From the NCBI GenBank assembly GCA_000151295.1, contig GG745329.1, forward strand, positions 2,085,880 through 2,149,879: DNA of 64,000 bases, written 5' to 3'. Below the pieces are notes generated by a model. The model made no database searches, had not been told where the DNA came from, and saw only the letters and a list, made by a program, of their open reading frames with translations. Shown here one piece after another: positions 14,801 through 56,666 of the stretch. The stretch comes from Allomyces macrogynus ATCC 38327 (lineage: Eukaryota; Blastocladiomycota; Blastocladiomycetes; Blastocladiales; Blastocladiaceae). Every line of letters starts with the position of its first letter. The stretch's first letter is position 1. The position numbers and the translations under genes were made by a program.

Positions 14801-14911
14801 GACGAGGCGCGGGTCGACGTGACGGTTGCGATGCCGACGGTCGAGATTGTGGATGTCGTCGAGTGGAAGTCGAGGCAGGCGTTGCTGCCGACGGCCATGG
14901 TGAAGCTGTAA
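11862..14911 (+). CDS. STE23: Insulin-degrading-enzyme-type M16 zinc metallopeptidase (Ste23/IDE)
   Basis: Two exons (11862-12213 and 12303-14911) separated by an 89-nt GT-AG intron encode 986 residues, matching the roughly 1000-residue IDE family. The inverted zinc motif HXXEH appears as HFAEH (residues 74-78), within GLAHFAEHLSFMGTKKYP. The second exon carries the tandem catalytically silent M16 repeats, and the C-terminal RQLGYLVFTDVRRQANTVGVRV is typical of IDE. Such enzymes degrade small amyloidogenic or signalling peptides, and in yeast take part in pheromone processing. ATG at 11862 has a good context (CCACCATG). Upstream in-frame ATGs (11592 and 11673) would add a Ser/Leu/Arg-rich leader that could target a mitochondrial isoform; sequence alone does not decide. 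Confidence 0.92.
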
Positions 14912-32774: not shown

Positions 32775-35700
32775 TTACCCCAGTCTGCTCCCCGTCACGA
32801 ACCCGCCTGTCGCTGCAGCATACGACGCCGGCCGACCCACTGCGGTCGCGTTCGACGCGGCTCTCGACACCGGAACCGCGCTCGACGGTGGTGCAGCGGG
32901 CGCGCTCGACGTCGTCACTGCCGACTCGGGCCCCGCGGCCGCCGCCCCGGCGTCGTCATCGAACAGCGCCGGGTTCACGTGCTTGTCGACGTGATTTTTG
33001 GCATTGCGCAGCGCGAGCACCCACTCCTTCATACTCGCCTGGTCCTCGGTGCAGAAAAAATGAATGTAGCTCGCCTCGAGCGGCTCGTCGTGAATGCCCA
33101 GTCGATGCTGCGCCTTGACCGCAAAGCAGTACCGCGTCGGCGCACGCTTGCGCGGCGCGATCGGCGTATACACGTCGTAGTGCGCGAGCGTGCAGAGTAC
33201 CGTCGCGGGCTTGTCCTGCGCCGACCGCACATAGAGAGTCGCGACGCCATCGGTCGAGTTGGCGGGACTCCCGCCGGGCACTTCGGCGCCGGGACGCAAC
33301 TCGACGTACCGCTTCTTGAACTGGCCGCGCTTGGCCTCCCAGTGCAGCCAGCCCGCGACGGGCGGGTAGAATATCTTGAGCGCGTTCGGCGTCAAACTCG
33401 ACTTGTACCCGTACCGCCTGAGCAACAGCGCGTTATCCGTATCGCGCTCCCAGGTGCGCAGCACGTCCGTGACCAGCTCCCAGTTCTTGAGCGGCCGCTC
33501 CACGCCCAAATCGTGGAACAGCTCGAACAACGTCCACTGGTCGGCCTGGTGCCGGTCGAGATTCGCCTTTTGGACGACCCACTCTGTCACGAGCTCGGCG
33601 GTCATGAGCGATGTGAGCATCAATGTCTTGGCTTGGCTCGTATCGCCAATGTAGATCTTGGCGGCCACGCGCTGCACGCGCGCTTGCGCGAGTTTCTCGA
33701 GCGCGGAAGCGACGCGAGGGTCCGACGGGTTGATGCCCATGCTCTGCAACAGCTCGCGCTGTTTCTTCTCTTCGGCACGCTGTGCCCGCTCCCACTTGTC
33801 CTCGGCCGCGGTCAGGTGCGGACTGCTCAGCGACAACTTGCCGAGCGCCGACACCGCGCCGGGTTTGCCCGCGGGCGCAGGTGCTTGGACCGACGGCGCT
33901 GGGACGGTGGCAGGCGCAGCAGCCATCGACGGAACCGATGGCGGCGGTGCGACCGGCGCGCGGTCCGCCAGCACTTCGTTCGGGCTCGGGAGAAGTGGCA
34001 CCGCCGGCAATCCACCCCCGGGCGTCGGGCACCGCGACCCGTCGCGCGTCGACGCGGCCGACGCCGACCGGTGCCGCAGGAGCGTCGCGAGCTGTCCCGC
34101 CGCCTCGCCACGCACAAACAGCGACTCGAGGTCAGCCGCAAGCGTGTTGATCGTATCAATCACGTCGATTTCCTCGAAGACCACCGTGTGCGCTTTCGGC
34201 GCCATGGGCTTCAGCTGGTCGGTGCTGCCGAGCGCGTCCTGGCTCACGAGCGCGTTCGTGCTGCCGCCGAGCTGGTCGGTGCTCGTGCCGAGTTGCGCGA
34301 GACTTGCGACGCTCGCGGCGCGGTTGGGCGGCGCGTTGTACTCTGCGCGCGTCAGGGTGTCATGGTGCGATGCGGACTGGCGCATGTCTGAGTAGGCAGT
34401 CGCCGGTGACGGGGCGCAGATCGGGAATGGATGTGATGTCGCAGTGGAGTTGCCGGAGCCGTCGAGATCGCCCACGAGCTCGTCGAGCATTTGCGTGATC
34501 GAGATTGACGTCGACACGTGCAGGTTATGGCTGTGATGGTGGTGGTGGGGCGCATGCGGGGCCGTTGCCGGAGTGGACGGGACGGCAGGCGGCGGCGGGA
34601 GCGGAATGACGGGGGCCGGGCCGGGTGCAGCTGGCGTCACTGTGGTAGCCGTGGGCGGGAACGCGGTGCTAGCCGCCGAGATCGACGACCGACGTTCGGG
34701 CACACCAGCGAGCTCGTGCAGTGACGGGCGGCGCTGGCCCGTGCTGGGAGCAGCAGGCGGGACGTCAGGTTGACCGCTTGCCGCCGACAAGGATGACCGT
34801 CGCGGCGGTGCACCAGCGAGCTCGTGCAGCGATGGCCGCCGGCCGTTTGGTCCAACCCCGGTCGTTGATGCGACTGGCTCTGCAGCGGGCCCCGAGACCG
34901 CGGTCGGCGGAGGCAGCGGAACGGGCACAGCTGTCCTCGGCAACGTCGGTGGGAGCGGCGACGGAATCGGTGGCGGTTTCGACGGCGGCCCCGCCGACCG
35001 GCTCGCAGTCGAGTGCGCCGACGATGCGTCCGAATCAGGTTCCGCATCGATGCGCTCCATGTGCAGGACCGGGTGCGACGACCGTCTCCGCATCGAGTTG
35101 ACCGTCATCGGGATCGGCGCGTGCTGCGCCGGCCGCAACCATGGCGCCTGGCCGGTAGTCGATTCATTTCTTGTCGGCGACGATGGCGAGCCCCCGCGAC
35201 TTGTCGACTTGGTCGCACTCTCCGCGAGCGCGGCCGAGGCCGCGTCCACAAACTGGTCCTGCGAGTTCTCTTCTTCGACCGTCTCCGTCGACCCCTGGCA
35301 CGATTGCGGAACCGACGACGGTGCCGGCGGCTCAAACAGCGACGTCATCGACTTGACCTTGGACGCGGGCATGTCGGCGAGCATCGGCATGCTGCGCGAG
35401 TTGGCATTGTTGATGTTGCTGCTGTTGCTGCTGCTCGACCGCTCGTGCACATTGCGCGCGAGCGGCAGCGCGGTGGGGCTCGCGGCAACCGACGTCATCG
35501 ATTGGTGGTGATGGTGCTTGCCGAGTCCCGAGCGTGTATCAGCGGCCGTGCTGGCCCGGTCGGACCGCAGCTGCGTACGAGCTCCGCTCGGCGGTGTGCG
35601 GACCCCGCGTGGGACGACGGATGGTGAATTGCCGGCGGCGTTGGGCGCATCGAACCGTGCGCGCAGCGCCGAGACTTTCTTAATCGCAGCGACCTGCTCG

Positions 35701-36515
35701 ATCCGATCAATGACGGGACTGTCCTGCTGGTTCTGCTCGTCGTCGGCGTCCGGCCGGGACGGTGCCGCAACCATGGGACTCAGCTGCAGCGGCATTTGCG
35801 TCGGGCTCGTATCGCGGAACCCGCCGCGCGTCGGGCTCGTATCGCGGAACCCGCCGCGCGTCGGGCTCGTATCGCGGAACCCGCCGCGCGTCGGGCTCGT
35901 ATCGCGGAACCCGCCGCGCGTCGGGCTCGACGGCGCCGTCGAGGTCGCTGTCGAGTCGGTCGCCGCCGGGGAAACGGCCGTGAGCGGTGGCAGCGACGGT
36001 TGAGCCAGCGCGCGATCGAGTGGCGGGACGTCGTACAACGACGTTTTGGTCGGTGGTGGCGCGTGATTCGCGGCGAGTGCCGACGTAAGCGACAGCTTGC
36101 GCTCGCGCGAGATGGGTGACAGCTGGCTCGAGCCGGTGCTGCTCGCAGAGTGTGCGTCGAGTGGGCCGGCAAGCTCGTCATGGTCAGCGTGCAGGTGCAG
36201 GTCGATGATCGACGCGCCTGCACCGTGGCCGTCCTGGGATCCGGTGGAGAAATGTGCGGGTGAGCTGTCAAAGGTGCAGATCACGGGAAGAGAGCAGAAC
36301 AGGACACTTGCGTCGGCCCGGCGGAGCGATAGCGGCAAGAAGGCACGTGGGTCAATGGCGGGCGGGTCGGACGTGCGTGCAGCGTTTGGTGGGTCGCTGG
36401 CATGGTCGATCGGAGACGTGGGCGCGGCAGGGAGCGGTATTGGAGCGTCGGGTTCCTTGGAAATGGCGTCGAGCTCAGCCAGGAGGCGATCGAAATCAAT
36501 CTGCTTGGACGCCAT
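32775..36515 (-). CDS. RA-PH adaptor protein resembling the MRL (RIAM/lamellipodin) family
   Basis: A single open frame of 1246 residues from ATG 36515. The C-terminal third contains a Ras-association domain (about 951-1050, opening KIYIGDTSQAKTLML and closing around RYGYKSSL) followed directly by a PH domain (about 1053-1173, GWLHWEAKRGQFKKRYVEL through EWVLALRNAK). This tight RA-PH unit is the hallmark of MRL adaptors, which link Ras/Rap GTPases and phosphoinositides to actin regulators. The N-terminus has an LD-like helix (FDRLLAELDAI, about 8-18), and similar helices recur further in (ITQMLDELVGDL, DTINTLAADLESL). Proline-rich tracts, which recruit Ena/VASP or profilin in animals, fill the middle. 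It contains four 10-residue tandem repeats. The Grb7/10-type RA-PH family is the main alternative. Confidence 0.75.
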   Translation of the reverse strand: MASKQIDFDRLLAELDAISKEPDAPIPLPAAPTSPIDHASDPPNAARTSDPPAIDPRAFLPLSLRRADASVLFCSLPVICTFDSSPAHFSTGSQDGHGAGASIIDLHLHADHDELAGPLDAHSASSTGSSQLSPISRERKLSLTSALAANHAPPPTKTSLYDVPPLDRALAQPSLPPLTAVSPAATDSTATSTAPSSPTRGGFRDTSPTRGGFRDTSPTRGGFRDTSPTRGGFRDTSPTQMPLQLSPMVAAPSRPDADDEQNQQDSPVIDRIEQVAAIKKVSALRARFDAPNAAGNSPSVVPRGVRTPPSGARTQLRSDRASTAADTRSGLGKHHHHQSMTSVAASPTALPLARNVHERSSSSNSSNINNANSRSMPMLADMPASKVKSMTSLFEPPAPSSVPQSCQGSTETVEEENSQDQFVDAASAALAESATKSTSRGGSPSSPTRNESTTGQAPWLRPAQHAPIPMTVNSMRRRSSHPVLHMERIDAEPDSDASSAHSTASRSAGPPSKPPPIPSPLPPTLPRTAVPVPLPPPTAVSGPAAEPVASTTGVGPNGRRPSLHELAGAPPRRSSLSAASGQPDVPPAAPSTGQRRPSLHELAGVPERRSSISAASTAFPPTATTVTPAAPGPAPVIPLPPPPAVPSTPATAPHAPHHHHHSHNLHVSTSISITQMLDELVGDLDGSGNSTATSHPFPICAPSPATAYSDMRQSASHHDTLTRAEYNAPPNRAASVASLAQLGTSTDQLGGSTNALVSQDALGSTDQLKPMAPKAHTVVFEEIDVIDTINTLAADLESLFVRGEAAGQLATLLRHRSASAASTRDGSRCPTPGGGLPAVPLLPSPNEVLADRAPVAPPPSVPSMAAAPATVPAPSVQAPAPAGKPGAVSALGKLSLSSPHLTAAEDKWERAQRAEEKKQRELLQSMGINPSDPRVASALEKLAQARVQRVAAKIYIGDTSQAKTLMLTSLMTAELVTEWVVQKANLDRHQADQWTLFELFHDLGVERPLKNWELVTDVLRTWERDTDNALLLRRYGYKSSLTPNALKIFYPPVAGWLHWEAKRGQFKKRYVELRPGAEVPGGSPANSTDGVATLYVRSAQDKPATVLCTLAHYDVYTPIAPRKRAPTRYCFAVKAQHRLGIHDEPLEASYIHFFCTEDQASMKEWVLALRNAKNHVDKHVNPALFDDDAGAAAAGPESAVTTSSAPAAPPSSAVPVSRAASNATAVGRPASYAAATGGFVTGSRLG
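35801..35929 (-). repeat. 30-bp coding tandem repeat
   Basis: Four essentially identical 30-bp units plus a partial fifth encode SPTRGGFRDT repeats in the RA-PH protein. Near-perfect DNA identity indicates recent expansion. Each unit carries a Ser/Thr-Pro site. Confidence 0.9.
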
Positions 36516-37254
36516 GATGCACGGAAGTAGTGGTGCGATGAGGGGTGGGGGGGCGTGCAGGCCGTGCCGAGGGTCGTGCGGTCAGGTAGCCGGAAGTGCC
36601 CAAGTGCAGATAGCTCGACGGGCGGTGGGAGTGGCAGGGTTGGCGATGGGCCCCGTCAGGGGATGACGGGCGAGGGTCGACAAGCAAAGCGACGGGCGCG
36701 GCTGGCGTGAACTGCAGCAGGTAGCGAGCAAATTGGGCGGCAATAATCACAGCAATTTCGAGATTCGAGCGTTTTTGGCTGCAGCGCCGACGCGACCGAA
36801 TTGCGCGCCAAGGTGGTTGTCTCGCGCTCGAAGTGGGAGACAACCGCGCATCACGCGCGCTGCTGGTGGACGCACGTGCTGGGCCGCAGGCGTCGGCGTG
36901 CTGTTTGGCATGGCCGAGTCGCAGCGCCATTGCAAACGACGCCCGCGGCGGCCAAAATCGTCCTCGTCCTCGCGCTGCACCCGCACCCGCCGCGACCACC
37001 GCTGCCGCGCGCGCGATTCGACCCGCGCTGACGTGCCACTTGCCGCACTCGCCCCGCGACCGCCGCGCCGTGCCCGCGCCGTGCCGTTCACCGGCCCGAT
37101 CGCTCGACCTTCGACTCGTGCTGGACCGTGCCGCTGCGCCGTGAGACCGCGACCGCCAAGCTCGAATCTCAGCGCCAAGACGCGTCAACTCCAGCCGATC
37201 ATCAAGAGGAGCGTTTACGACCTCGACCCCCGGCCCACCCCAAGCTACGCGTCC
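36516..37254. promoter_or_regulatory. Divergent promoter region between RA-PH and coiled-coil genes
   Basis: 739 bp carrying both 5' flanks. The sequence is GC-rich with overlapping non-ATG open frames on both strands; no TATA box was found. Confidence 0.4.
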
Positions 37255-40524: not shown

Positions 40525-43500
40525 TCACAATCCCGACTCGGCGTTCCTCCCCTTCCCAGCGTCCACGTCCGACGCATTTCTCGCTGTCCCCGCCGCCTGC
40601 GACCCGCCCAACAATCCGCGCGCCGGGTCTGTCGGGCTCACCGACGAGCGCCATCGTGTGACCGCCGGTGGCATCGCAGGTGAGCCCGCGTCCGGCGACG
40701 CGCGCGACTTGGATGTGACAAAAGTGGTGGAAATGGCGTGAATCCACCGCCGTGCCTCGGTCGCGTCGCGACATTGAATGACAGTGGCGTGCGGCGCAGG
40801 CGACAATGCGTGGGTGACGAGCAGGAACTGCGCTTGGGTGAGCGGAGTGCCCGACTCCGGAGCGACGGCGCGCGCGTCGATTGACACGGTGTCGCGAAAA
40901 ACGTGGTGGTGCGGGCGCGTGGCCTAGGCCGTGAATCCAGCCGGTCAAAAAAGCGCGAGAGGGGTTGACAGAACACGGCGACAGACGCACCCACGGATCG
41001 CAATCGAGCACGAGCAGCGTCTGCAGCGGCGTAATCAGCACGAGCGAGACGGCCTGCCACGGCGTCCACCACCACGCGCGCGCATCGCGCCGTCCCATGT
41101 GTGTGCCGACGAGTACGGGCATCCGACACGCGACCGATTGCCGGATGAGCTTGCCGATCCCACGCCACGCGATCGCAACAGCCTGGAGCGCCGCGGCCAT
41201 GGCCTCGTCCGAGACGTCAGCGACCGGTACGCTGCCATCAGCGGCCGAGTTGCTGGGATCGTTACGCGTCGACTCGAGACCCAAATCGTCGAGACTCTGG
41301 TTGACGAGCCTTGTGAGCGCGCCGACGTTGCTATTCGGTATCCGGCGCGTGCTCGAATCGACGATGCTTGCGATCCTGGTCGGGTGTGTACTCGCGCCAC
41401 TTAAGTGCAGGATGGGCGCAAGTAGGAACTGGGATCCGCGCGCCACGATGAGACCCAGCGGACGCATCGAAATGGCGGCAGAACCAATGAGCAAGCTCAG
41501 GAGAGTGAGAACCGAGTAGGCAAACACGATCAAAAACGGGTCCCCTGGTGTAAACTGAAGCATCGCTATGAACACAGTGGGTAACGTCACGCCGGACATC
41601 GCGACCATGGTCGCGGTTGACTCATTGTTGAGCACGGCGAGCGACCGGATGCGGTGCGCGAGAAAGAGACCGAAGCCGGCGAGCGTCCAGTGGTAGAGGA
41701 CGATCAGGGTGACGATCGCCATCGCAGCCAACTCGGGAGGGCCCAGATCCATGCGTGATCCGCACCGGTACGTGAACGTGGTCGAGCTGGCAATCACTTG
41801 CACGGGCTGAGGCACCGCAATCACAATCCAGAACGCCACGAGCAGAGCATATACGGCGAGAGTGAGCCCGCCGAGCCCCGCGAGGTGCGCGTTGCTAACG
41901 TTGAGCCGAAACAACTGCCCGGCGACGACAAGCGAGAGTCGGAGGTTCGAGAAAATGTAAAACACGCGCCACGTCTTGGCAAGTAGCGCTACGAGGACGC
42001 TGCCGAGCCCCAGGATCAACATGGCCGTCTTGACCGCACAGAGAGCCGGGGTCAGATCTGTTGCAAAAGGAAGGTCGAGCGAGCTACCGAGCCCACCCAT
42101 CAGCGCGCCGAGATTGACGGCAGCAACGAGGGCCGGCGACTGGATGCGAATCAGCGGGTCGCTTCGGAAGCGCGCCAATCCGGCGATCGAGAGGAGGTTG
42201 ATGACAATGAGCAGGGCGAGGAGTGCGAGTGCAATGGCAAACGGCGTAGTTCGGCTCCGAACTGGCACCAGATTCTTGACTAAACCAACAAGGAGCACGA
42301 TGATGAGGAAATGCAACGCGTTGGAGCACGGGTCAGAGTCAAAATGCGCAGCACCGTAATCACTTGGCGGCGGCGGGATCCATGACCTCCAAACATGTTC
42401 GTTCTGACGCGTCCATGCGCAGGCCGCCATGGCCGTGCCCTCGGCAATGGGCAGCGCCGACAACATGTCCGCAATATCCGTGTCGCGAATCACAAGGTTG
42501 TGGAGCAGTGTATGGACGGGAGGAACGCGCTGCGTTACGGACACCGAGGCAAATTTTTGGATCACGTCTGTCTCCCAATCGCATCGCCACGAGGTGCGAA
42601 TCGATGGGGCGACCGTCAGGTTGAATTCAGCCAAGCAGTCGGGTGTCGCCGGCGGGAAATGGACCGGTTGGAGCAAGTACCGACTCGGCAACGTTTCCGG
42701 AACCCAATGGAAGAGCAAACACGTCGAATTGCTCAACTGCCGCTCGATGCACGCCGAGACGGTCGGAATGAAAGCTGGCCCGAGGTACACGACGACGAGC
42801 GGGAGGCCAAAGTCGAGAATGCGTTGCTCGCTCATGCCAGTGCTGTACTCGGGCATGACATGCCAAAACTCGCGGCACGATGAGTATGCAGCGCCTTGGC
42901 ACTGTGGCGGAACGTACTCGCCGTTCTGGCAGTACCACGAGCTGCACAGATACGATCCGTCCGACGTGCGCTGAGGTAACGTCGTGCCGGCACGCGGTAA
43001 AAGCCGGAGCAAGTTTGGGTCGAGCATCGAGCCCCACGACGAGAAAATGATATTCGGATTCAGGTCGGCAATGTAGGCTGGGAAATACCACGAGATGCGG
43101 CCCACGTAGCCGAGGGCGCCGGTCATGGCAATGAGCTGCTGCTTGAGAACGAGCTGTGATCGGCATCAGCGATAAGTGGGTCTACAATCGAGTCTGCGTT
43201 GGCAAACAAGGGTATGACTGTACCTCGCGAATTTCGCGCGCCTTGTTGTTTGGCCACATTTCGAGAGACACGTCACTTCGCCCCGATGCGAGCCTTGCAA
43301 GAGCTCCATCCGAGCCCGGATACTCGATGATCGTCACGTCAATTCCAAGGACTTGCTGAATGAGAATTGCTACCACGTAGTTGGACAATTTCGAGCTTGT
43401 TGGCGTAAATTACCATGAGGGTCAAGAGGCGCCCCAACATGCAGGTCGGAGAGAAGCACTCGTTTGGCCGACACGCACCTTGACCATGCATTCGACTCCA

Positions 43501-43765
43501 AGACGATGCGGTCGTACTTGGACCGGATGATCGTCGAGGATTCCGGCATGACCCAGCCGTACGATGTGGAAACAGAGGAGAGGAGGCACGACGGCACAGC
43601 TCGAACGGTCTGCGCTGACACAATCACGTTGAGGGACCAGGTTCCAACCAGCAACACGACCACAGCAAGCAGAGCAAGTGTTGGAGTCGCTGGAATGCGT
43701 TGGTCTCGTTGTCGCCTGCCGCGATAGTGACCACGGCCAGCGCGAGAATCAATGATGAGCGTCAT
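40525..43765 (-). CDS. OpuAC-type binding domain fused to class C (GABA-B-like) 7TM receptor with C-terminal PH-like domain (paralogue 1)
   Basis: Five exons (43765-43479, 43395-43224, 43153-42355, 42279-40991, 40923-40525), 981 residues. An N-terminal hydrophobic helix (about 25-50) is followed by an ectodomain that reads as an OpuAC/ProX substrate-binding protein: VLGIDVTIIEYPG, LARLASGRSDVSLEMWP, ISWYFPAYIADLNP, HWVPETLPSRYLLQPVHFP and the C-terminal ACAWTRQNEHVWRSWI. Seven helices follow (about 431-699), with AKTWRVFYIF (about 520) after helix 3, matching the GABA-B receptor AKTWRVHAIF region. About 805-905 resembles a PH domain, with the final helix EARRWIHAIS. Proposed role: a plasma-membrane receptor for betaine, choline or a related osmolyte, signalling through G proteins. 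The 75-nt third intron has no stop, so an unspliced reading is possible. Confidence 0.8.
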
Positions 43766-44682
43766 CGTGGAGTATTTCCTGGTCCTTGATCATTGGTCGG
43801 CGGGAATGGTTGGAAGTGGCGGTCGCAATCGACAAACTTGAATTATCGAGAGGAGTTTCGTCAGCCGATCAAGAATCGTTTGCCGTTAGTTGTGACAAAT
43901 GCAGAGCCGATCAGAACTGATTTACGCTTTGCGCCTGCCGTAGTTGCCAGTCGCCTGTGTTGTGATCTATGTTGGCGAGACTTGGATGCAAGCGCTGGAA
44001 TGCATTGTAGTCACGTTGGCGCTGCAAACACCCCAGTGTCCACCGCCAAAAGCCGGCCGATCATGAATTGCCGATAGTCGTTAAGCCAACGGGCAGGCGG
44101 GAAATAGATCACCCGACCTCCATTTTCCGCCTGAGCCCGAGGAATCAAGGCTGACACTTGTTGGTCGGCCCTCCCATGCTCCAAGAATCCATGACATACA
44201 TTTCAAGTTGTTGCTTTGCTGCATTCATGATCGTGAGCTCCGCTGAGTCGTCAGACAGGAACCACTTGCGAACGAAATTCCTTGGAAGGCGGGAGTAAAC
44301 CGCGCCCTTCCCTTGTCGGGATTACCGCTCGCTACGCGGCGACGCTTGACGGTACATCTTGTGGCGGGCATGCTGTCCTGGCTCTGTCCGTGGCGGAACA
44401 ACCGTTGTATGGGTTTCTAAAGCAAATTGAGGGGATTTTCGAGTTAGTTGATCGCGCGCATGCATGCGCTGGTGGAATCGGACTGGTGGGGAAAGGGCAA
44501 ATTGTTCTGGGCCCCGTGTCGTTTGTTCTCCATGCTTGGACTTGACAGCCACATTGCTCAAACGCATCGTGCTTTCTGCCATCGAGACTCTCCACCTTTA
44601 AACGTGACGAAAAGAAATCCACTAGCTCGGAAAATATATGCACCCTCACCCCTTTCGCCAAGTCTCTTTACCCTCCCTTGCC
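43766..44682. promoter_or_regulatory. Region between the two receptor genes
   Basis: 917 bp with the 5' flank of paralogue 1 and the 3' flank of paralogue 2. It is less GC-rich than the genes. No extra gene, TATA box or repeat was identified. Confidence 0.4.
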
Positions 44683-47600
44683 TCACAGTCCCGACTCGGC
44701 ACTCCTCCCCTTCCCTGCCTCCACAGCGACCGACGCGTTTCTCGCCGCACCCACGGCCCGCGACCCACCTGCCGATCCGCGAGCCGGGTCCGTTGGACTA
44801 ACCGACGCGCGGCGCCTCGCTCCCACCGACCGCACCGCCGTGGAACCCGCATCCGGCGATGCGCGCGGTTTGGATGCGGAAAAAGTGGTGGAGATGGCGT
44901 GAATCCACCGCCGTGCCTCGGCCGCGTCACGGCATTGGATGGTGGTGACGTGCGGCGACGGCGATGATGCTTGGGCGATGAGCATGAACTGCGCTTGCGT
45001 GAGCGGCGTAGTGCCAGTGACGGGCGGCGTGGCTCGCACATCGATGGCGGTGCCACGGAGAATGAGATGGTGCGTGTGCGTGGTCTAGGGCGGGAATCCA
45101 TCAGTCTTTGGACTGAGAGAAAGGGGGACAGCGCAAGGCAATAGACGTACCCACGGATCGCGGTCGAGCACCAGCAGTGTCTGCAGCGGCGGAATCAAGA
45201 CGAGCGAAACGGCCTCCCACGGCGTCCACCACCATGCCCGCGCATCGCGCCGGCCCATGTGCGTGCCGACGAGCACGGGAAACCGGCACGCGACCGACTG
45301 CCGGGCGACCTTGCTGTTCCCATACCACGCGTTCGCAACGACCTGGACGACCGCGGCCATATTATCGTCCGAAACATCTGCGACGGCCGCCAGGGTGCCT
45401 TCGACGGCCGAATTGGTGGGATCGTTGTGAGTCTCGAGTCCCATATCGTCAAGACTTTCATTGACGAGCCTAGTGATCGCGCCGACGTTGCTGTTGGGTT
45501 TCCGGCGTGTGCTCGCGTCCATGATGGTCGCGACCTTGCTCGAGTGCGAGTGCGAACCGGCACCGCTCAAATGCGCTGCGGGCGCGAGCAGGAACTGGGA
45601 CCCGCTCGCCACGATGAGAATCAGCGGGCGCAGCGATATGGCGACGGATCCGACGAGCAAACTGAGAATTGCAATGATCGCGTTCGCAAACACGAGCAGA
45701 AACGGGTCGTCGGTGGCAAACTGGAGCACGGCAATGAACACGGTGGGCAGCGAGATGCCCGCCATGGCGACTATGGTGGCGGTCGACTCGTTGTTGAGCA
45801 CAGCAAGCGACCGAATGCGATGCGCGAGGTAAATCCCGATCCAGGCAAGAATCCAGTGGTAAAACACCATGAGGTACGCGAGCACAAAGTCGGTCGTCTC
45901 GCGAATTCCCAGGTCCATGCGCGTCCCGCACCGGTAAGTGAATGTGGTCGGACTGGCAATCGCTTGCACGGGCTGCGGCAATAAGGTGACAACCCAGAAC
46001 GTCTCGAGGATGGCGTAGACTGCCAGGATGAGCCCGCCTAGCACCGCGAGGTGCCTGTTGCTCACATTGAGCCGGACCAGCCGCCCAGCGACAACGAGCG
46101 AGAGCCGCAAATTCGAGAAAATGTAGAAGACGCGCCACGTCTTGGCAAGAAGGGCCACGAGCACAATCCCGAGCCCCAAGACCATCATCACCGACTGGGC
46201 CGCACAGATAGCTGGAGTCAGGGCTTCTGTGAAAAGAGCGTCGACCGCACTCCCAAAGCCACCGATCAGTGCGCCGACATTGACGGCGGCAACGAGGGCC
46301 GGCGACTGGATGCGGATCAGCGGGTCGCTGCGGAAGCGCGCCAATCCGGCGATCGAGAGGAGGTTGATGGCAACGAGCAGGGCCAGCAGCGCAAGTGAAA
46401 TGGCAAACGGCGCGGTTCGGCTCCAAACCGGCACCAAGTTCTTGACTATGCAATGAAGGTGAGCGGAAGGAGTTGGGGCACGCGTTGCAGAAACAGCGCC
46501 AGGATTGCAGTACCATAGTCGCTTGGCGGCAGCGGGATCCACTGTCTCCAAATCTGCTCGTTCTGCTGCAGCCACGTGCACGCCGTCGCGGCCGTGCCCT
46601 CGATGTCAGGAAGCGCCGACAACATGTCCACAATATCCGTGTCGCGAATCACAACATTGAGCAGCAGCGTGTGCACGGGCGGAACGCGTTTTGTCATGGA
46701 CACCGAGACGAATTTTTGGATCACGTCCGTCTCCCAATCGCACCGCCACGAGGTGCGAGTCGACGGGGCGAGCGTCAAGTTGAAATCGGCAATGCAATCG
46801 AGCGTCGCGGGTGGAAAGTTGACCTGCAGAAGTGGGTACCGACTGGGCAACGTTTCCGGGACCCAGTAGAAGAAGAGACATGTCGAGTTGCTCGACTGCC
46901 GCTCGAGACACGCCGTGACTGTTGGGAGAAACGCAGGGCCGAGATAGACGACGACGAGCGGCAAATTGAAGTCGAGAATGCGCTGCTCGTCCTTGCCCGG
47001 GCTGTACTCAGGCATGACGTGCCAAAACTCGCGACAGGTCGAATAAGCCGCACCCTGGCACTGTGGCGGAACGTACTCGCCGTTCTGGCAGTACCTGTCG
47101 CTGCACAGGTACGACCCGTCCGCCTTGCGCTGCGGCAACGTTGTGCCAGCGCGCGGCAGGAGCTGGAGCAGGTTCGGGTCGCGCATCGACCCCCACGACG
47201 AGAAGATGATGTTCGGATACAGGTCGGCAATGTAGGCCGGGAAGTACCACGAGATGCGGCCCACGTAGCCGAGAGCGCCGGTCATGGAAATGAGCTGTTG
47301 CTTAAGGGCGAGCTATTGTCGATGCCCGCGATGAGAAAGATTCAACCCCATCGTTTGACCGAGCCGTACCTCGCGAATATCGCGCGCCTTGTCGTTTGGC
47401 CACATTTCGAGAGACACTTCGCTCTCGCCCGACGCGAGCCTCGCAAGCGTGCCAGACTGCCCCGGGAACTCAACGATCGTCACGTCAATGCCGAGAACTC
47501 GCTGGACGAGAATCGCTACCACGTAGGTGGACAAATTGGAGCTTGTTGGCGACAAGTTACCACGCGGGTCAAGACGCGCTCAACCATGTCCAATGCAAAT

Positions 47601-47923
47601 CGCGCGTGGCCAATCACCAACCGGTGCCCTATCGACACGCACCTCGACCACGCATTCGACTCGAGGACGACACGGTCATACTTGCGCCGAATGACCGACG
47701 TGGATTCCGGCAGGACCCAGCCGTACGGTGCCGAAACAGACGAGTTGAGGCACGAGGGGGTCCCTCGAATGGTCTGCGCCGCAGCGATAAGAGTGGGTGT
47801 CTGGGTTTCTGCCACCAGCGCGGCGAGGACAAGAAGACTGATTGATATTGCTGCGCAGTTGCGACGGCGTTGCCTTGTGTGATCACGACGACGGCAACCG
47901 GCAGTATCAAGAATGAGCGTCAT
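44683..47923 (-). CDS. OpuAC-type binding domain fused to class C (GABA-B-like) 7TM receptor with C-terminal PH-like domain (paralogue 2)
   Basis: Five exons at positions equivalent to paralogue 1 (47923-47643, 47541-47370, 47312-46514, 46445-45151, 45084-44683), 982 residues. An apparent frameshift near 46.5 kb vanishes once the 68-nt intron 46513-46446 is removed. Signatures match paralogue 1: VLGIDVTIVEFPG, LARLASGESEVSLEMWP, AYIADLYPN, HWVP-type segment as YWVPETLPSRYPL, AKTWRVFYIFSN and the PH-like end EARRWIHAIS. Differences concentrate in the signal segment, the ligand-domain loops (PGQSGT against PGSDGA) and the linker before the PH domain. The same tandem orientation and intron sites show duplication from one ancestor. 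The ligand pocket may differ between copies. The start is taken by analogy with paralogue 1; the frame is open 32 codons further upstream. Confidence 0.8.
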
Positions 47924-48291: not shown

Positions 48292-49625
48292 CTACGGCTT
48301 GCACTTGCCGCCTGCGACGTCAATCGTCATGAGCTGCGCCGGATCGTCAAAGACGAACCACTTGTCGGCCGGAATCCCCTGAAAGGCTGTCATGAACCGC
48401 TCGGGCTTGTTGAGATCCTTTTCCTTGTCGGCGTTCACACCGGTGACGCGGCGAATGAAAATGCACTTGATGGTCGTCTTGGTCACAGGCGCGAGCGACC
48501 GCCACGCGTCGCCATAGACTTCCGGGTCCTTTTCCGTCGAGTCGCCAATCATGACCCACTGACGCCGCGGCGCTGCAGCAAACAGTGCCGAGATTTGCTC
48601 GCGCTTGTGCGCGGGCGTGCCCGCCCAAAAATCGAGGTCCACCAGGCCAAACGCGCGCGGGTGCAACGAGCCCTCAGGGTAGAGCTGCGCAATGAACGTC
48701 GTGAGCGGCGCGGCGAGCTGGTGGACCGACCCGGTCACGTAGTGGAAGGAGACCGGGTTGGCGTCGCCTTGCGACAGCGTCTGCTTGAGCCGCGCAAAAA
48801 AGTCGGGCATGCCGCTGACGGGACGGAACGGCTTGACCAACGTGTTTTTTAGCGCCTTCGACTGGTCGTTGACTTCGGTGACGCGAATCTGTACATTTGC
48901 ACGGGCAGAAACGTATGAGCGAGCCGGTCAGCCATGACCAACAGCAAGAATGTCGCGGCGAGAGCAAAAAAATGTACGAACCGTGTCGTCAATGTCCGAG
49001 ATGACGGAGAACCCATTAGCCGAAACGACCTGCACCTTGCCCGCAAACCCGGGCTTATTTCCCGAGATCGACAGCCAGTTGGTCGAGCACGGCACCGTCA
49101 GCGAGAAGGGCGCCGTCGCCAGGCCGTGGTCGGCTGCGGGCGGCGTCGTCAAGCTCACCGAGGTGTTGCCCACGATGGAAAACGGGAACGTGGCACCGTC
49201 GGACCCCTTTTGGTAAAAGTACGCCGACATGGTCTGGAGCCGCTGCCGATCCTCCTCGGAACCCGCCGCGAGCGGCGCCACGACCTTGAGCAGCGTCGAC
49301 GCGGTCGCCTTTACAATGGCGTTGTAGTGCGTGGCTACACGATGATTTACGTTGGGATCGGGATCAGGTTCAAGTATTCGCGGATCGCTGACATGCAAAC
49401 CGGCGTGAGAGCGTACCGCGAGCCACAAAGTTGCCCTGCACTCGGCACATGTTGCCGCCAGGGGTCAACGGATCGGAGCGAATGCCAATCGCACGCAACG
49501 GAGTCACAATTTCGACGGGCGACGGGCCAAAGATACCACGTTCACCGACTGTTTGGTGCAGGTGCTGCATGTGCAAGAGCAACCAGCAGAGCCAGGGTAA
49601 TCGCGAGCTTCAGCGTCGTTACCAT
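48292..49625 (-). CDS. Secreted App1-type phosphatidate phosphatase-like protein
   Basis: Exons 49625-about 49417, 49334-48982 and 48888-48292. The last two splice in frame across an intron placed inside the catalytic motif: ISDIDDT ends one exon and IRVTEV starts the next. The HAD-type App1 signature DIDDT, the following KPFRPVSGM and the second motif MIGDSTEKDPEVYGDA all match App1 (DUF2183) proteins, Mg-dependent phosphatases acting on phosphatidate in yeast. The first exon starts with a clear signal peptide (MVTTLKLAITLALLVALAHA), so the product is probably secreted or vacuolar, unlike cortical-actin App1 of yeast. The signal-peptide frame stops at 49545 and the next coding-like frame (IFGPSPVEIV) is shifted by one base. 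No intron fits cleanly, so an indel or misread is likely there. Confidence 0.75.
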
Positions 49626-51105: not shown

Positions 51106-54100
51106 CTATGCAAACTTGAACAGGAGCACGACGCGCGGCAGGTCCATTTCCAGATCGGACGGCAGATACTTTTCGACGCCGAGAATCTTGCGCGGCTCGG
51201 GTCGCGAGAACCACGAGTTGTCCGAGTCGGGCGTCGCCTCGAGCAGCAGCACGTCGGACCTGTCGGTCGACACGGATCGGCTCGCAACGGCCTTCAAAAT
51301 CTCGGGCGAGATGGGGTTCTCGAAGTCGGCCTAGAGAACATGGGTATGGTGAGGATGACGGGTCGTGTACGACGGGAGACGAATGTGCAAGCGTGGTTGG
51401 GTCGTACCACCGTGTAAATGGACATGAGCTTGGAGATTTGCGTCGGCGAGAGCAAGAAGCACACGTCGAACAGGTCCTCGATGTAGAGCTCGAGGTTGGT
51501 CGGCGTTGCTTTGTTGAGCTGCAAGAGCTTGGCCGCCTGCATGAGCCGCTCGAGATGCAATGATGCCTCGTTGAGCGAGTGCTGCGAGCACCACTCAGTG
51601 AGCCGGCTCACGTTGTACTGGATCTGCATGCCGCGCTTCCACGTCGCGAAGTTCTTGCGCATGATCAGGTGGTTGAACGCAATGACGCCGACCATCTTGA
51701 AGATCTCCGACATGGTCTGGCGGATGATGGCGTCGTCGACGTAGTAGTACTTGTGCACGCGCCACACTTGGCCAATCGCGTCAAGCAACTGCTCGATCGT
51801 GTAGGTCGGTTGTGTCGAGACAAACTTCCTGAAGAGCGAAGACGAGTCTTTGGCGACGAACCCGGGCAGCGACTGGTTCTCGATCACGCACGGGATGATG
51901 AACTTTTGCATGCGCTTCTTCACGAGCCGCACCCACTGGAAGTAAAGGTTCGTGAACGCGCGCTCGACCTCGACGACCGTCTTGTTGAGCAGCCGCTCGC
52001 CCTCCATGTAGATGGACGTGCGCCGTGCCGCGGCCAAGGCGGCGGCACCCGGCGACGCGCTGCCGGCGAGCCCCGACGTCTTGAGAATGCTGAGCAGCTC
52101 GAGCAGGTTTGACATCCAAAAATTGGTCACTTCGTCGTCGAAATTCGAAGCCACGACGCGCTCCTCGATAGCCTGCGTCGCGTTCTTGAGGAACGAGGCC
52201 ATGTTGCTGTTCATTCCGTGCTGCCAGGCCTTGATCGAGTAGAGCCCGAGAATGTGCGCCGGGAACACAATTTGTCGCCGGCTCGAGTCTTGCGTCGCGT
52301 GCTTGGGGATCGGCAGGTTGCGAATGACGCCGTCGAGAATCTCCGACTCGAGTTTCGGGTCCTGCAGCAGCGAGAACGTGTGCTCCTGCTCCATGATGGC
52401 CTCCTCGACGGTGCGTGGTGGCGTGTGCCCGCCGTTGAGCAGGTTCACGGGATCGACCTCGACCATGGCCTTCATTTCCTCGGTCCAGACCTCGACCGAC
52501 GAGTGGCGGCGCAGGCGCTTGAGCGCGTCAAACGACCCACGGGACGTCATGCGTTCGGTCGGCGAGACTTGCGACAGTGGTGTGACTTGCCGCCGCCACA
52601 GTGCCTCGGGCGGCAGCGTGTCGACCGACGGTCGTCGCGGCCGTGCTGTGGCGAGCTCGTGCTTGGCCTTTTCGTCCTCGAGCTGCTGCTTGAGCGAAAT
52701 GACCTCCTGCTTGAGCACATTGATCTGCGTCGACTCTTGGATGAGCGCCTCTTGCCGCGCCAAAGCCGCGATCCGCTCGCGTTCGCGGTCCTGCTGCTCG
52801 GACACCTGCTGTTGCTGGAGCTGCTCCTGTTGCTGCAACAACTGCTGCTGCTGCTGGTCGCGGTCGCGCAACTGCCGCTGTGCTGTGGCCTTGAAGTTGG
52901 CGAGCGACTCTTGCAGCGCGGCAATCTCAGCGTCCTTGCTGCGAATCACGTCGTTGGCGGCATTGAGCTGCGACTGCAATCCCTTGTTCTGCTGCATGAT
53001 CGCCTCCATTTCGCGGCTCGACGACCCCGCGTCCTGCAGCTTGTCCTTGAGCTGCTGCTGGTTCGACTGTGCCTGCTCAAACTTATCGCGCCACTGCTTG
53101 GTCTGGGCCTCGAGCGTCTTGACGACGTCGTTGAGCTGCCGCACCATCTTCTCCTTGCCGTCGAGCGACTGCGTGAGTTCGACGACTTTGTTTTCGAGCC
53201 GGTACGAGATCTCCTTGTAGTGGTTGACCGATTTGGCCTCGAGCTTGAGCGCCTTGAGTTCCTTGCGCGCGCGGTACCGGCGAATGCACGACTGCGCGAG
53301 AATAACGCGCCTGCGCGCCGTCGCATACTGCATGCGCGCGCGGTACCCGCGGAACGCCGCCTGGATCTCAATCGCCGCCTTCTCTTCACGCAGCCGCTGC
53401 AATTCGCGCCGCGCGACATACGACCGCCACGCGCACTGCAGCGTGACGACGGCTGACCGCGTACGTGCAAACTCGCGCTGCGCGAGGTACCGCCGGAAAC
53501 ACGCCTGGATCACGGTTGCGGCCTTGGCCTCGCGAATCGCGCGCGCCTGCTTGCGTGCGTACACGCCGCGCACGCGCGCCTGCAGCGAGATCACGGCCGA
53601 CCGCAGCTTCAGGTACCGCTTGCGCGCGAGCGCGCACTTGATGTTCTTTTGGATCATGACGACGCACTCGTTGAGCCGCTGCGTGCGCAGCTTTTCCAGG
53701 TACGCGAGCTGGCCAGCGCGGAAAAAGATTTTGGTCATGCCGATCTGGTACTTGTCGGTGTCCGGGATCGTGCGCGTGAGCAGCTTGGTGCACAGGCCGC
53801 GAATGTCCTTGAACTGCGCCCATTCCTTAGACGGCAGGAGCAGGTAGTACCGCTCGACGAATTCGACAAACGTCCATCGGCCCGGGTAACCGGCGGTCGA
53901 GATGCGGATCGTCTCGAGGACACCGCACGCGCGTAATTGCGAGAGCACCATTTGCGGCTCAAACTCGAACGGTTTCTTGGCCGAGTTCGACTTGATGCAT
54001 CGAATATAGCTGACCTCGGTCGCGTTGATCGTGTCCATGAGCTGCGTGAGCGACTGCTTGAAGACCGACCCGAGAGTCGGCTTCGACAGCTTGCCGCCGC

Positions 54101-56666
54101 CGCCCATACTGCGTGCCATGATGGGGCTCGTGGCTCGACTCGACACGGGCGAGGGCTTGTTGATCTTGTGCGCCGAGATCACGTCGTGCAAGTAATCAAA
54201 CTGCGCGTTGTTGAAGAGCGCGAGCAGTTCGTCGGGCACCGTGTCCTTGTTCTTTTCAATGAACCCGTCAATCTCGTACTCGACATTGTGCGCGAAATGG
54301 TGCACGATAAACGACGTGTTGGAAAACCGCGGCTTGCCGAAAAATTTGTGCTTCTTGTCAAACTGGTTGTAGAACTTGGCAATTAGCGTCTTGTCAGACC
54401 CGGACGGTAACCGCGACTCTTCGTCGAGCAGCGACAGCAGACCCATGCGGCCCTCGATCAGCTCAATGCACGGCTTGTTGTCGTTGAAGTCGATAAACGA
54501 CCACTTGATCTGCTCCTTGACGTACTCTTCCTGCTCGAGCTTGAAGACGTGCTGGTTAAACTCTTGCTGCAGCTTTTCGTTGGCCCAGTTGATGCACCCT
54601 AAAGCGGTGGTGGGTCGGACGTCAGCGACCAGTGGGCCTTGAGCTAGCGGTGGCAGTGGAGAAGGTCAACGACGGCGTACACTGCTCGAACGAGTTCTTC
54701 TTGAAGTGCTCGAAGCTAGAAACGGCGCAGCGTTAGTTTTCGTATTCAAGAGCCGCGGATCGCGCCACCACCGCATTGATAAAAACGTACCCGTAGATAT
54801 CCAGCACGCCAATGAAGCTGTGGAACGAGCTGGCGACTTCGGGCGGGCACAGCGACTCGTTGGTCTTGTCGACGAGCCACTCAAACAGCCCCGCATACAA
54901 GAACTTGGCGACCGAATCCCGAATCGCGATCGCGCCGACCATATTGACGTTCGTCACGATCTTTTCGAACCGCGTGACAATCTGCTTCTTGACGAGCCAC
55001 TTCTTGAACTCGGCCACCTCAACGCCCAACAGCTTGCACGCCTGAGCCATGGCCGCGTCGTCGTCGGCAATGTAGGCCTCGTCGTTGCGCAGGTTCGTGA
55101 TCTGGATGTTGCCAATGTGCAGCAGCGCCGCGAGCAGCCGGAACAGTTTCCACTGCACGGTCACCGACACGCCAATCGTCGACAATGCGCGCTGCGTGAT
55201 TTCGAATTCGGCCGCGTCGTCGACGCCAGGGACCGTCCCGGACCCACCGCCCTGGTTCAGGTAGTGGAAGTGTGAGTGCGGCTGCAGACCGAGCTCCTTG
55301 CGCTCGGCCGCGGGCGCACCGGCGACCAGCTGGTAGAAGATGTGGTAGTTGCGCTCCGTTTCGGGCTGGTAGATGACGCGCGACCGCTCGAGCAGGTAGG
55401 TGCGGATGCGCGCGCCAATGATTTTGGCGTGTTGGCTGAACAGCAGCTAGGAGGGTGGGCTTGATGCGTTAGCGCGACTGACCCGAAGGATGGGATGGAT
55501 GGACGGTCACTGAGCGGAAACAAATAGAGTCAAAGGCGAGCAAGCGGATCCTATATACCTCAATGTACTTGCCAAACCGCGACGAGTTGTCGTTGCGCGT
55601 CGTCTTGGCGTTACCAAACGACTCCATGATCGGGTTCGTCGCTGGAAGCGGTGAACAAGGTTCCCGTCAGTTGGCCGTGAACAACAAGGAAAAATCGGTC
55701 AAGCATGAGCAGCATGACATACCGAGAACCTGCTGCTCGACCTCGCTCATGCCGGCCGCGTTGGTTGGCGACGTGACCTCGGCGGCCTGGAAAGAGTCCT
55801 CACCAGACTCTCCTGCGTCGGCCATGGCAAAGTAGCGCTACAACAATTCGCACGACCTCGTCAGTCGTGCACCTACGGACTCTCCACCCGTCCAATAACC
55901 GTGTACCATGATGTACTTGGCCGAGACCGTCTTACCCGCTCCCGACTCGCCGGAGACGATGATACTCTGGTTCTTCTTTTCGCGAATCATGCCGCGGAAC
56001 GCGTCTTCGGCGACGGCAAACAAGTGCGGCTCGAGCTCGCCGCGACGCTTGCCTGAGTAGGCGCGGACCACGTCCTGCGTGTAGAGCTGCACGCGCTGGA
56101 ATGGGTTCATGGCAATCAGGACGATGCCCGAGTAGGTGTAGATGTTGTGCTGCGAGTAGCGCGTGCGAATGTTGTGCAGGACTGGTCGCGGGGTGGGGAA
56201 TCATGGTCAGATCCATGCAAGTCGGATCGGCTGGTGCGGAGCTCTTCGCGAGCGGAGAGCGTACCAGCAGGCTCGTGCAAGTAGGACAGGTTCGTCAAGT
56301 CCTCGATGCCCTCGAGCATGGGCGGGTTCTTGAGCGGCGGCAGCTCGTAACTGTCTTTGCTCGCCGCAATCTTGGCAATGGTCGTCGACGTGGTCACATC
56401 CTGTGCAAGGTCAAGCGATGATCGTCAGTTTTCGATCCACTCCGCGACCCATCACCGCATCCCCAGCACCACAAATTCGCGCTTCCTCTTACCTTGCCCA
56501 AAGCGTCGGTCACCTTGACGGTGACAGCATCGCCGCTGCGTACGAGCGATTGCACAGATGCGACGCGCCAGCCCTCGACCACGTCCTGCACCCACACTTT
56601 AGTGCCGGGTGTGTAGGCCACAAGCAGCGCCTCGGCGGCCGCGACCGGATCTGTGGGGGCGGTCAT
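51106..56666 (-). CDS. MYO2: Class V myosin heavy chain
   Basis: Nine exons (56666-56493, 56400-56265, 56181-55907, 55837-55723, 55641-55559, 55446-54791, 54715-54681, 54598-51411, 51330-51106) splice to 1628 residues. The start gives an N-terminal SH3-like segment ([18 protein letters not shown]). The motor has the P-loop GESGAGKT, switch [10 protein letters not shown], switch II DIYGFEHF and the actin-binding and converter regions. About six IQ motifs follow ([10 protein letters not shown]..., [12 protein letters not shown] and so on), then a Gln-rich coiled coil, then a C-terminal DIL cargo-binding domain (about 1230-1560, including [14 protein letters not shown]). Class V myosins carry secretory vesicles and organelles along actin. 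A 35-nt exon (54715-54681) encodes part of the relay region. The 80-nt last intron reads through a distinct tail if unspliced. Confidence 0.93.

Follow-up and report, generated by a model that had tools for sequence, protein, structure and literature searches.

The window analysed here is a 64,000-nucleotide stretch of the genome of the water mould Allomyces macrogynus ATCC 38327 (contig GG745329.1, positions 2,085,880 to 2,149,879), and the feature of interest lies on its minus strand at positions 40525–47923. This span, which an earlier note on this DNA had assigned to a pair of fused receptors, coincides exactly with the outer ends of two spliced genes. Gene A (40525..43765) has five exons and encodes a protein of 981 residues, and gene B (AMAG_01751; 44683..47923) has five exons and encodes 982 residues with the same architecture. 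The two lie in tandem on the minus strand, separated by a gap of 917 bases, and their spliced proteins are 74% identical. Each protein comprises, in order, a hydrophobic N-terminus, an OpuAC-type binding domain, the seven-transmembrane (7TM) core of a class C G-protein-coupled receptor (GPCR), and a pleckstrin homology (PH)-like tail. Gene A, which we infer to be AMAG_01750 because it adjoins AMAG_01751 and carries OpuAC, and gene B thus place a bacterial type of binding domain on a class C receptor.

Splice models were built by removing GT..AG introns, giving exons at 43765–43479, 43395–43224, 43153–42355, 42279–40991, and 40923–40525 for gene A, and at 47923–47643, 47541–47370, 47312–46514, 46445–45151, and 45084–44683 for gene B. 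The two models agree with each other and bear out the domain order and the four introns per gene described earlier. All eight introns are GT..AG and span 57–101 nt; their sites coincide between the genes while their lengths differ. Intron 1 of gene A (43396..43478, 83 nt) lies within the binding domain and shares its site with 47542–47642 in gene B (101 nt); intron 2 (43154..43223, 70 nt) corresponds to 47313–47369 (57 nt), intron 3 (42280..42354, 75 nt) to 46446–46513 (68 nt), and intron 4 (40924..40990, 67 nt), within the PH-like tail, to 45085–45150 (66 nt). In gene A the reading frame continues unbroken through intron 3, which is read as an intron because its counterpart in gene B is not open; the database proteins P0001 (gene A) and P0006 (gene B) join ...SDY-VKN... 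across this site, matching the splice model. The N-terminus of gene A (residues 1–48, 43622..43765) resembles a signal peptide, judged by eye, with a hydrophobic stretch at residues 31–49. The ratio of nonsynonymous to synonymous substitution rates (dN/dS) between A and B is 0.25 overall, with values of 0.19 for the binding domain, 0.23 for the 7TM core, 0.35 for the PH-like part, and 0.70 for the first 48 residues; purifying selection therefore acts on the domains and far less on the N-terminus.

The corresponding database models lack the 5' end of both genes. P0001 (881 residues; "hypothetical protein, variant", Allomyces macrogynus ATCC 38327) is identical to gene A over everything from residue 105 onward, behind four other residues, and P0006, which is AMAG_01751, equals gene B letter for letter from residue 140 to the end. 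The records are thus 104 (A) and 139 (B) residues short, and a tryptophan of the candidate ligand cage is among those lost. The new 5' exon is backed by protein P0012 of Blastocladiella emersonii, which shares the AQT-R--P-C start found in the N-terminus of gene A and an N-W-S motif. This correction matters in practice because cloning from the database records, with these residues absent, would give a truncated binding domain. Two further database proteins, P0003 and P0007 (from A. javanicus and A. arbusculus), look like two tandem receptors merged by annotation.

The 7TM core spans residues of about 425–700 in A (41438..42265; 7tm_3 match at 431–682) and about 423–700 in B (45598..46431; 7tm_3 at 428–683). 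The earlier note had named the lack of an OpuAC or a 7tm_3 match as grounds for giving up its reading; Pfam searches of the spliced proteins return both, significantly, in A and B. For 7tm_3 (PF00003, curated cut-off 33.5 bits) the scores are 65.1 bits in A (E 1.1e-17) and 68.8 bits in B (E 7.5e-19). The motif AKTWRVF within the core, pointed out in the earlier note, aligns with AKTWRVH of human GABA-B2. This receptor is also the best solved relative of the 7TM region (E 4e-8 with a single sequence and 3e-25 with a profile), with GABA-B1 at a profile E of 2e-13, and the GABA-B-like assignment of the core is supported. AlphaFold2 models were examined for two relatives of the receptors, P0002 (A. 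javanicus) and P0013, in place of A and B themselves; confidence in the 7TM region is mixed, with predicted local distance difference test (pLDDT) scores by block of mostly 53–89 in P0002, with one loop at 37, and 45–83 in P0013. The modelled 7TM regions of both match class C structures, and a designed GPCR-like fold ties with these at the top of the VIA list. The Foldseek and VIA lists are filled by the 7TM region; no PH or binding-protein entry stands among the matches listed, and they have no bearing on those parts.

The ligand-binding domain occupies residues of about 80–416 in A (42365..43528, split by introns 1 and 2) and about 78–414 in B (46524..47692). OpuAC (PF04069, curated cut-off 21.2 bits) matches at residues 86–187 of A (35.5 bits, E 1.1e-8) and 84–184 of B (31.1 bits, E 2.3e-7). 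The domain had been called a complete OpuAC domain; the Pfam profile is matched over its first half only (positions 2–101 in A and 2–100 in B, of 257), and the second lobe is instead recognised through matches to TmoX (4xz6) and DmpX (7yle), binders of trimethylamine N-oxide (TMAO) and dimethylsulfoniopropionate (DMSP), respectively, from marine bacteria. Residues 292–412 of A align with TmoX 211–331 (E 8.8e-4 for the block), and the second lobe of relative P0013 aligns with DmpX 186–309 (E 2.5e-4). The first-lobe block of A reaches E 1.2e-4 against 7yle, and Catenaria protein P0014 shows a weak OpuAC match over profile positions 172–257 (E 0.089). With OpuAC matched by the first lobe and the TMAO and DMSP binders by the second, the sequence supports an ectodomain of two lobes, in a predicted order that is that of TmoX and DmpX. 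Between the two aligned blocks lie 98 residues in A versus 61 in TmoX, with conserved cysteines among them. NCBIfam searches of three relatives gave nothing over cut-off. The betaine/TMAO/DMSP-binding class proposed for the ectodomain therefore stands, on the OpuAC match above cut-off and the TmoX and DmpX matches.

Turning to the candidate pocket, TmoX holds TMAO by W55, W102, W177, W222, F106, and F220, with the oxygen bound by E131 (PMC8918994; a table in PMC10087775 prints E122 for this residue), and the DmpX pocket comprises W35, W84, W152, W202, Y200, T64, A153, and E113 (PMC10030565). In HMMER alignments, W94 of A corresponds to W55 of TmoX and W35 of DmpX, W143 to W102 and W84, W303 to W222, and F301 to F220. 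At alignment level, three tryptophans of A thus align with TmoX cage residues and are candidates for an aromatic box, and the fourth, W250, is probably the equivalent of W177 by order and invariance. A and B each keep all four. K147 replaces TmoX F106, and I173 replaces E131/E113. Pocket letters were counted over 19 A. macrogynus loci, A included, with the letters at C70:1157k uncertain, as the matches overlap there. W94 is kept at 15 of these loci (three unreadable, one Arg), W143 at 17 (one unreadable, one Asp), and W303 at 17 (one stop, one Val); the W250 position holds 16 Trp and three Tyr, and the F301 position seven Phe, 11 Tyr, and one Ile. Outside A. macrogynus, P0012 and P0013 carry Thr at the I173 position, P0005 carries Val, and Catenaria protein P0015 has Glu at the K147 position. 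K147 lies four residues after W143; in the betaine binder ProX, H69 presumably lies four residues after the cage residue W65. ProX H69 steadies the carboxylate of the ligand (PMC10087775). By analogy, and as a guess, K147 could play an H69-like role for a betaine-like ligand.

The C-terminal tail (residues about 797–918 in A, 40717..41149, split by intron 4; about 796–919 in B, 44875..45312) had been described as PH-like, and here the evidence is divided. When the tails are cut out and searched alone, Pfam PH (PF00169, curated cut-off 25.1 bits) matches four of five, at E 0.0028–0.1 (0.017 for A and 0.1 for B), with a best score of 18.6 bits and none over the cut-off; searched whole, A and B give no PH match at E≤5, P0012 gives one at E 0.11, and P0013 gives none up to E 10. 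In a PDB search with a profile built from seven tails, three TIAM1 chains come first (E 0.17–0.32), ahead of two MutL chains (1.1–1.2); we take the matched part of TIAM1 to be its PH domain. The models of the relatives contain strands followed by a helix: seven strands and then helix 831–844 in P0002 (blocks at pLDDT 50–78), and, in P0013 (58–83), seven strands interspersed with a short helix and then helix 798–811. The alignment columns also hold an invariant pattern, D-A--A--W---I---F, which we take to fit the helix that closes a PH core. These features weakly suggest a PH-like tail, as distinct from a proven PH domain.

The ectodomain of A matches at least 19 loci in the A. macrogynus genome (42 exon-level matches). 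Directly downstream of 18 of these lies a 7tm_3 match; the 19th (C56) runs into N. Stops interrupt the unspliced ectodomain matches at 13 of the 19 loci; since B is among them and introns explain at least some, no locus was called a pseudogene. With two tail queries, a tail match at E≤0.001 was found at 15 of the 18 OpuAC–7TM loci (four on C74, four on C70, five on C41, and one each on C33 and C53) and was not found at those on C8, C75, and C57. The latter three (C75:96k, C57:84k, and C8:58k) form a separate OpuAC-type receptor subfamily, in which Tyr takes the place of W250 and no PH-like tail was detected. Conversely, a 7tm_3 gene at C70:102256–103809 that the A ectodomain does not match seemingly carries a weak relative of the tail (E 9.2e-5). 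Two more OpuAC-type GPCR genes lie past the end of the window, at C74:2155170 and 2159146, so that four genes span about 34 kb. These four pair one to one with four genes on C70 (1125327–1156174) on starred branches of the 7TM tree, a pairing that reads as a block duplication.

The 7TM tree contains 46 rows: 21 of OpuAC type, with P0012, P0013, and P0014 as the relatives used and C56 absent because its 7TM region is unreadable, and 25 other 7tm_3 loci out of many in the genome. P0003, seemingly two genes merged, was left out of A3, and P0003, P0007, P0008, and P0009 were left out of A1 and A5. One weakly supported branch (63/60) has all 21 OpuAC-type rows on the same side, and the tree carries warnings of long branches meeting, a result compatible with a single origin of the fusion and no proof of it. 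Relatives at 30–47% identity occur in Blastocladiella and Catenaria; the fusion therefore probably predates those genera. Searches farther afield favoured near relatives throughout: an ectodomain profile search over 8000 candidates gave three proteins at E≤1e-6, all fungal; a two-pattern scan of genome contigs gave 32 pattern matches and no confirmed relative; and a tblastn search of plasmids gave five bacterial records, three of them covering at least 80% of a related ectodomain at 21–22% identity. Recent transfer from a sequenced bacterium finds no support in any of the three.

On these grounds, we propose that A and B are Blastocladiomycota class C GPCRs with an ectodomain of the betaine/TMAO/DMSP/choline class that may sense a quaternary ammonium or sulfonium solute, a proposal to which we give about an even chance. 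Domain order, homology, the presence of the cage residues, and purifying selection can be read from the sequence, and the sensing of an osmolyte or choline is a reasonable extension from the pocket residues; as for the ligand, dimerisation, G-protein coupling, role of the tail, and cell stage of A and B, we infer them. A solute such as glycine betaine, choline, carnitine, DMSP, or similar would be caged between the lobes by W94, W143, W303, and probably W250. The lobes would close on the ligand, and closure would be relayed to the 7TM core, presumably within a dimer, so that the core would activate a G protein, while the PH-like tail might bind a membrane lipid or a signalling partner. More tentatively, and we think rather doubtfully, one ancestral fusion of a TmoX/DmpX-type domain, a GABA-B-like core, and a PH-like tail could have given rise to osmolyte GPCRs across the Blastocladiomycota (at least 19 A. 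macrogynus loci), possibly acting as coincidence detectors of external osmolyte and internal membrane lipid.

Several observations weigh against a quaternary ammonium or sulfonium ligand, and two of them, on the pocket Glu and on the F106 position, also speak for a binding domain retuned to another class of ligand (an amino acid, amine, organic acid, or mating signal), with the OpuAC label recording ancestry only. Both A and B have Ile in place of the pocket Glu of TmoX and DmpX, and the 19 loci hold 17 Ile, two Ser, and no Glu at this position; TMAO was judged an unlikely ligand because this residue is absent, and the ligand may differ altogether. The TmoX F106 position carries 12 Lys, three Arg, two Met, one Ala, and one unreadable letter, and in P0002, the relative of A from A. 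javanicus, W303 is replaced by Arg. The equivalence of W250 and W177 lies outside the HMMER-aligned blocks, the first-lobe block of A is weak against 4xz6 when taken alone (E 0.48), and the ectodomain models are mostly below pLDDT 50 (blocks of 22–55 in P0002 and 25–53 in P0013), at which pocket geometry is not readable. As a control, all 13 ectodomain tryptophans of A were followed through the other loci; 11 persist in at least 13 of those that can be read. That the cage is specially conserved was therefore dropped as evidence, and the persistence of its tryptophans is consistent with, not proof of, quaternary ammonium binding. Membership of the OpuAC family in itself leaves the ligand unfixed. 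The subfamily on C8, C75, and C57, with Tyr at W250 and no detected tail, and the low identity (just 21–22%) to the three plasmid-borne bacterial binding proteins also suit retuning. However, the three aligned cage tryptophans are retained by most paralogs, of which the more distant share 33–51% identity with A, and the solved relatives found belong to the quaternary ammonium/sulfonium class. We regard retuning as a serious competitor that falls somewhat short of an even chance.

The tandem arrangement of A and B raises a different prospect, in which one or both would act as a ligand-free signalling partner, either ligand-independent or within a heteromer. GABA-B2 serves as the signalling partner beside the ligand-binding GABA-B1, and the 7TM region of the pair is nearer to GABA-B2 by the profile E values given above. 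A GABA-B2-like 7TM does not, however, imply an empty ectodomain; among the regions compared, dN/dS is lowest in the binding domain, and both proteins keep the four cage tryptophans, so that we consider such a role improbable. That separate binding-protein and 7TM genes had been misjoined is suggested by the position of intron 3 at the junction, where the reading frame of A stays open through the intron, so that the join depends on predicted splicing. This possibility is largely refuted, and we give it almost no weight: unspliced A still reads in frame through the junction, the ectodomain and 7TM core are adjacent and in order at all loci but the one running into unreadable sequence, and both Pfam domains occur together in individual database proteins from A. 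javanicus, A. arbusculus, and B. emersonii. The fused architecture is not due to chance, because P0012 of B. emersonii holds both domains in one chain and the overall dN/dS between A and B is 0.25.

The earlier note knew of no described receptor with this exact architecture, and the view that it is undescribed does not stand. The fusion of OpuAC to a class C GPCR was published in 2012: Krishnan et al. (PMC3251606) assign OpuAC to six glutamate-family GPCRs of A. macrogynus (AMAG_01750, 04252, 14324, 14326, 15836, and 17562) and LysR_substrate to AMAG_01751 and 04246. Organism and Pfam pair are the same as here, with AMAG_01750 the presumed gene A, whereas gene B is assigned to LysR_substrate there and is of OpuAC type here. 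Our 19 loci and their six OpuAC and two LysR_substrate receptors were counted by different methods and possibly on different assemblies. In the open literature pairing OpuAC with GPCRs, theirs is the sole relevant report that we found; the text consulted contains no mention of a PH-like tail or of ligand-pocket residues, and among the open papers listed for pleckstrin homology and fungal class C GPCRs, no title or opening of an abstract describes such a receptor. The additions made here are small, namely the re-typing of B as OpuAC, the corrected 5' ends, the count of at least 19 loci, the PH-like tail, and a pocket pointing away from TMAO and towards quaternary ammonium or sulfonium solutes. 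The pocket comparison turns the Pfam label of 2012 into a short list of testable candidate ligands for zoosporic fungi.

To our knowledge, the chemoreceptors of zoosporic fungi are largely unidentified, and GABA-B2, which shares the AKTWRV-bearing 7TM core and is the closest solved sequence, lacks a PH-like tail. GABA-B2 differs also in its ANF-type ectodomain, the norm for class C receptors, whose typical module resembles amino-acid-binding proteins (PMC5168858). TmoX and DmpX share the binding-domain class and the aligned cage tryptophans with A and B; they are free binding proteins of ATP-binding cassette importers and have the pocket Glu that A and B lack. In anaerobic gut fungi, almost half of the class C receptors have sugar-type binding domains (PMC5168858). 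As in A and B, a type II binding domain there replaces the ANF/Venus-flytrap module; the gut-fungal domains resemble binding proteins for sugar uptake (PMC5168858), whereas those of A and B are of the betaine class. Taken together, these receptors indicate that fungi fused other bacterial binding-domain clades to the same class C core. A 2025 census reports class C receptors to be enriched in Blastocladiomycota and Chytridiomycota, and its main text makes no use of the term "periplasmic" (PMC12842992).

Elsewhere in the window, upstream of gene B, positions 48292–48927 (minus strand) encode an APP1 phosphatidate phosphatase catalytic domain (E 1e-25). A gene at 51294–54665 (minus strand) combines a myosin head, IQ motifs, and a DIL domain, presumably the make-up of a class V myosin. 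On the other side of the pair, a 1268-residue open frame at 32775–36581 (minus strand) contains a Ras-association domain and, below cut-off, a PH match, and positions 12137–14911 (plus strand) encode an Insulinase-type M16 peptidase.

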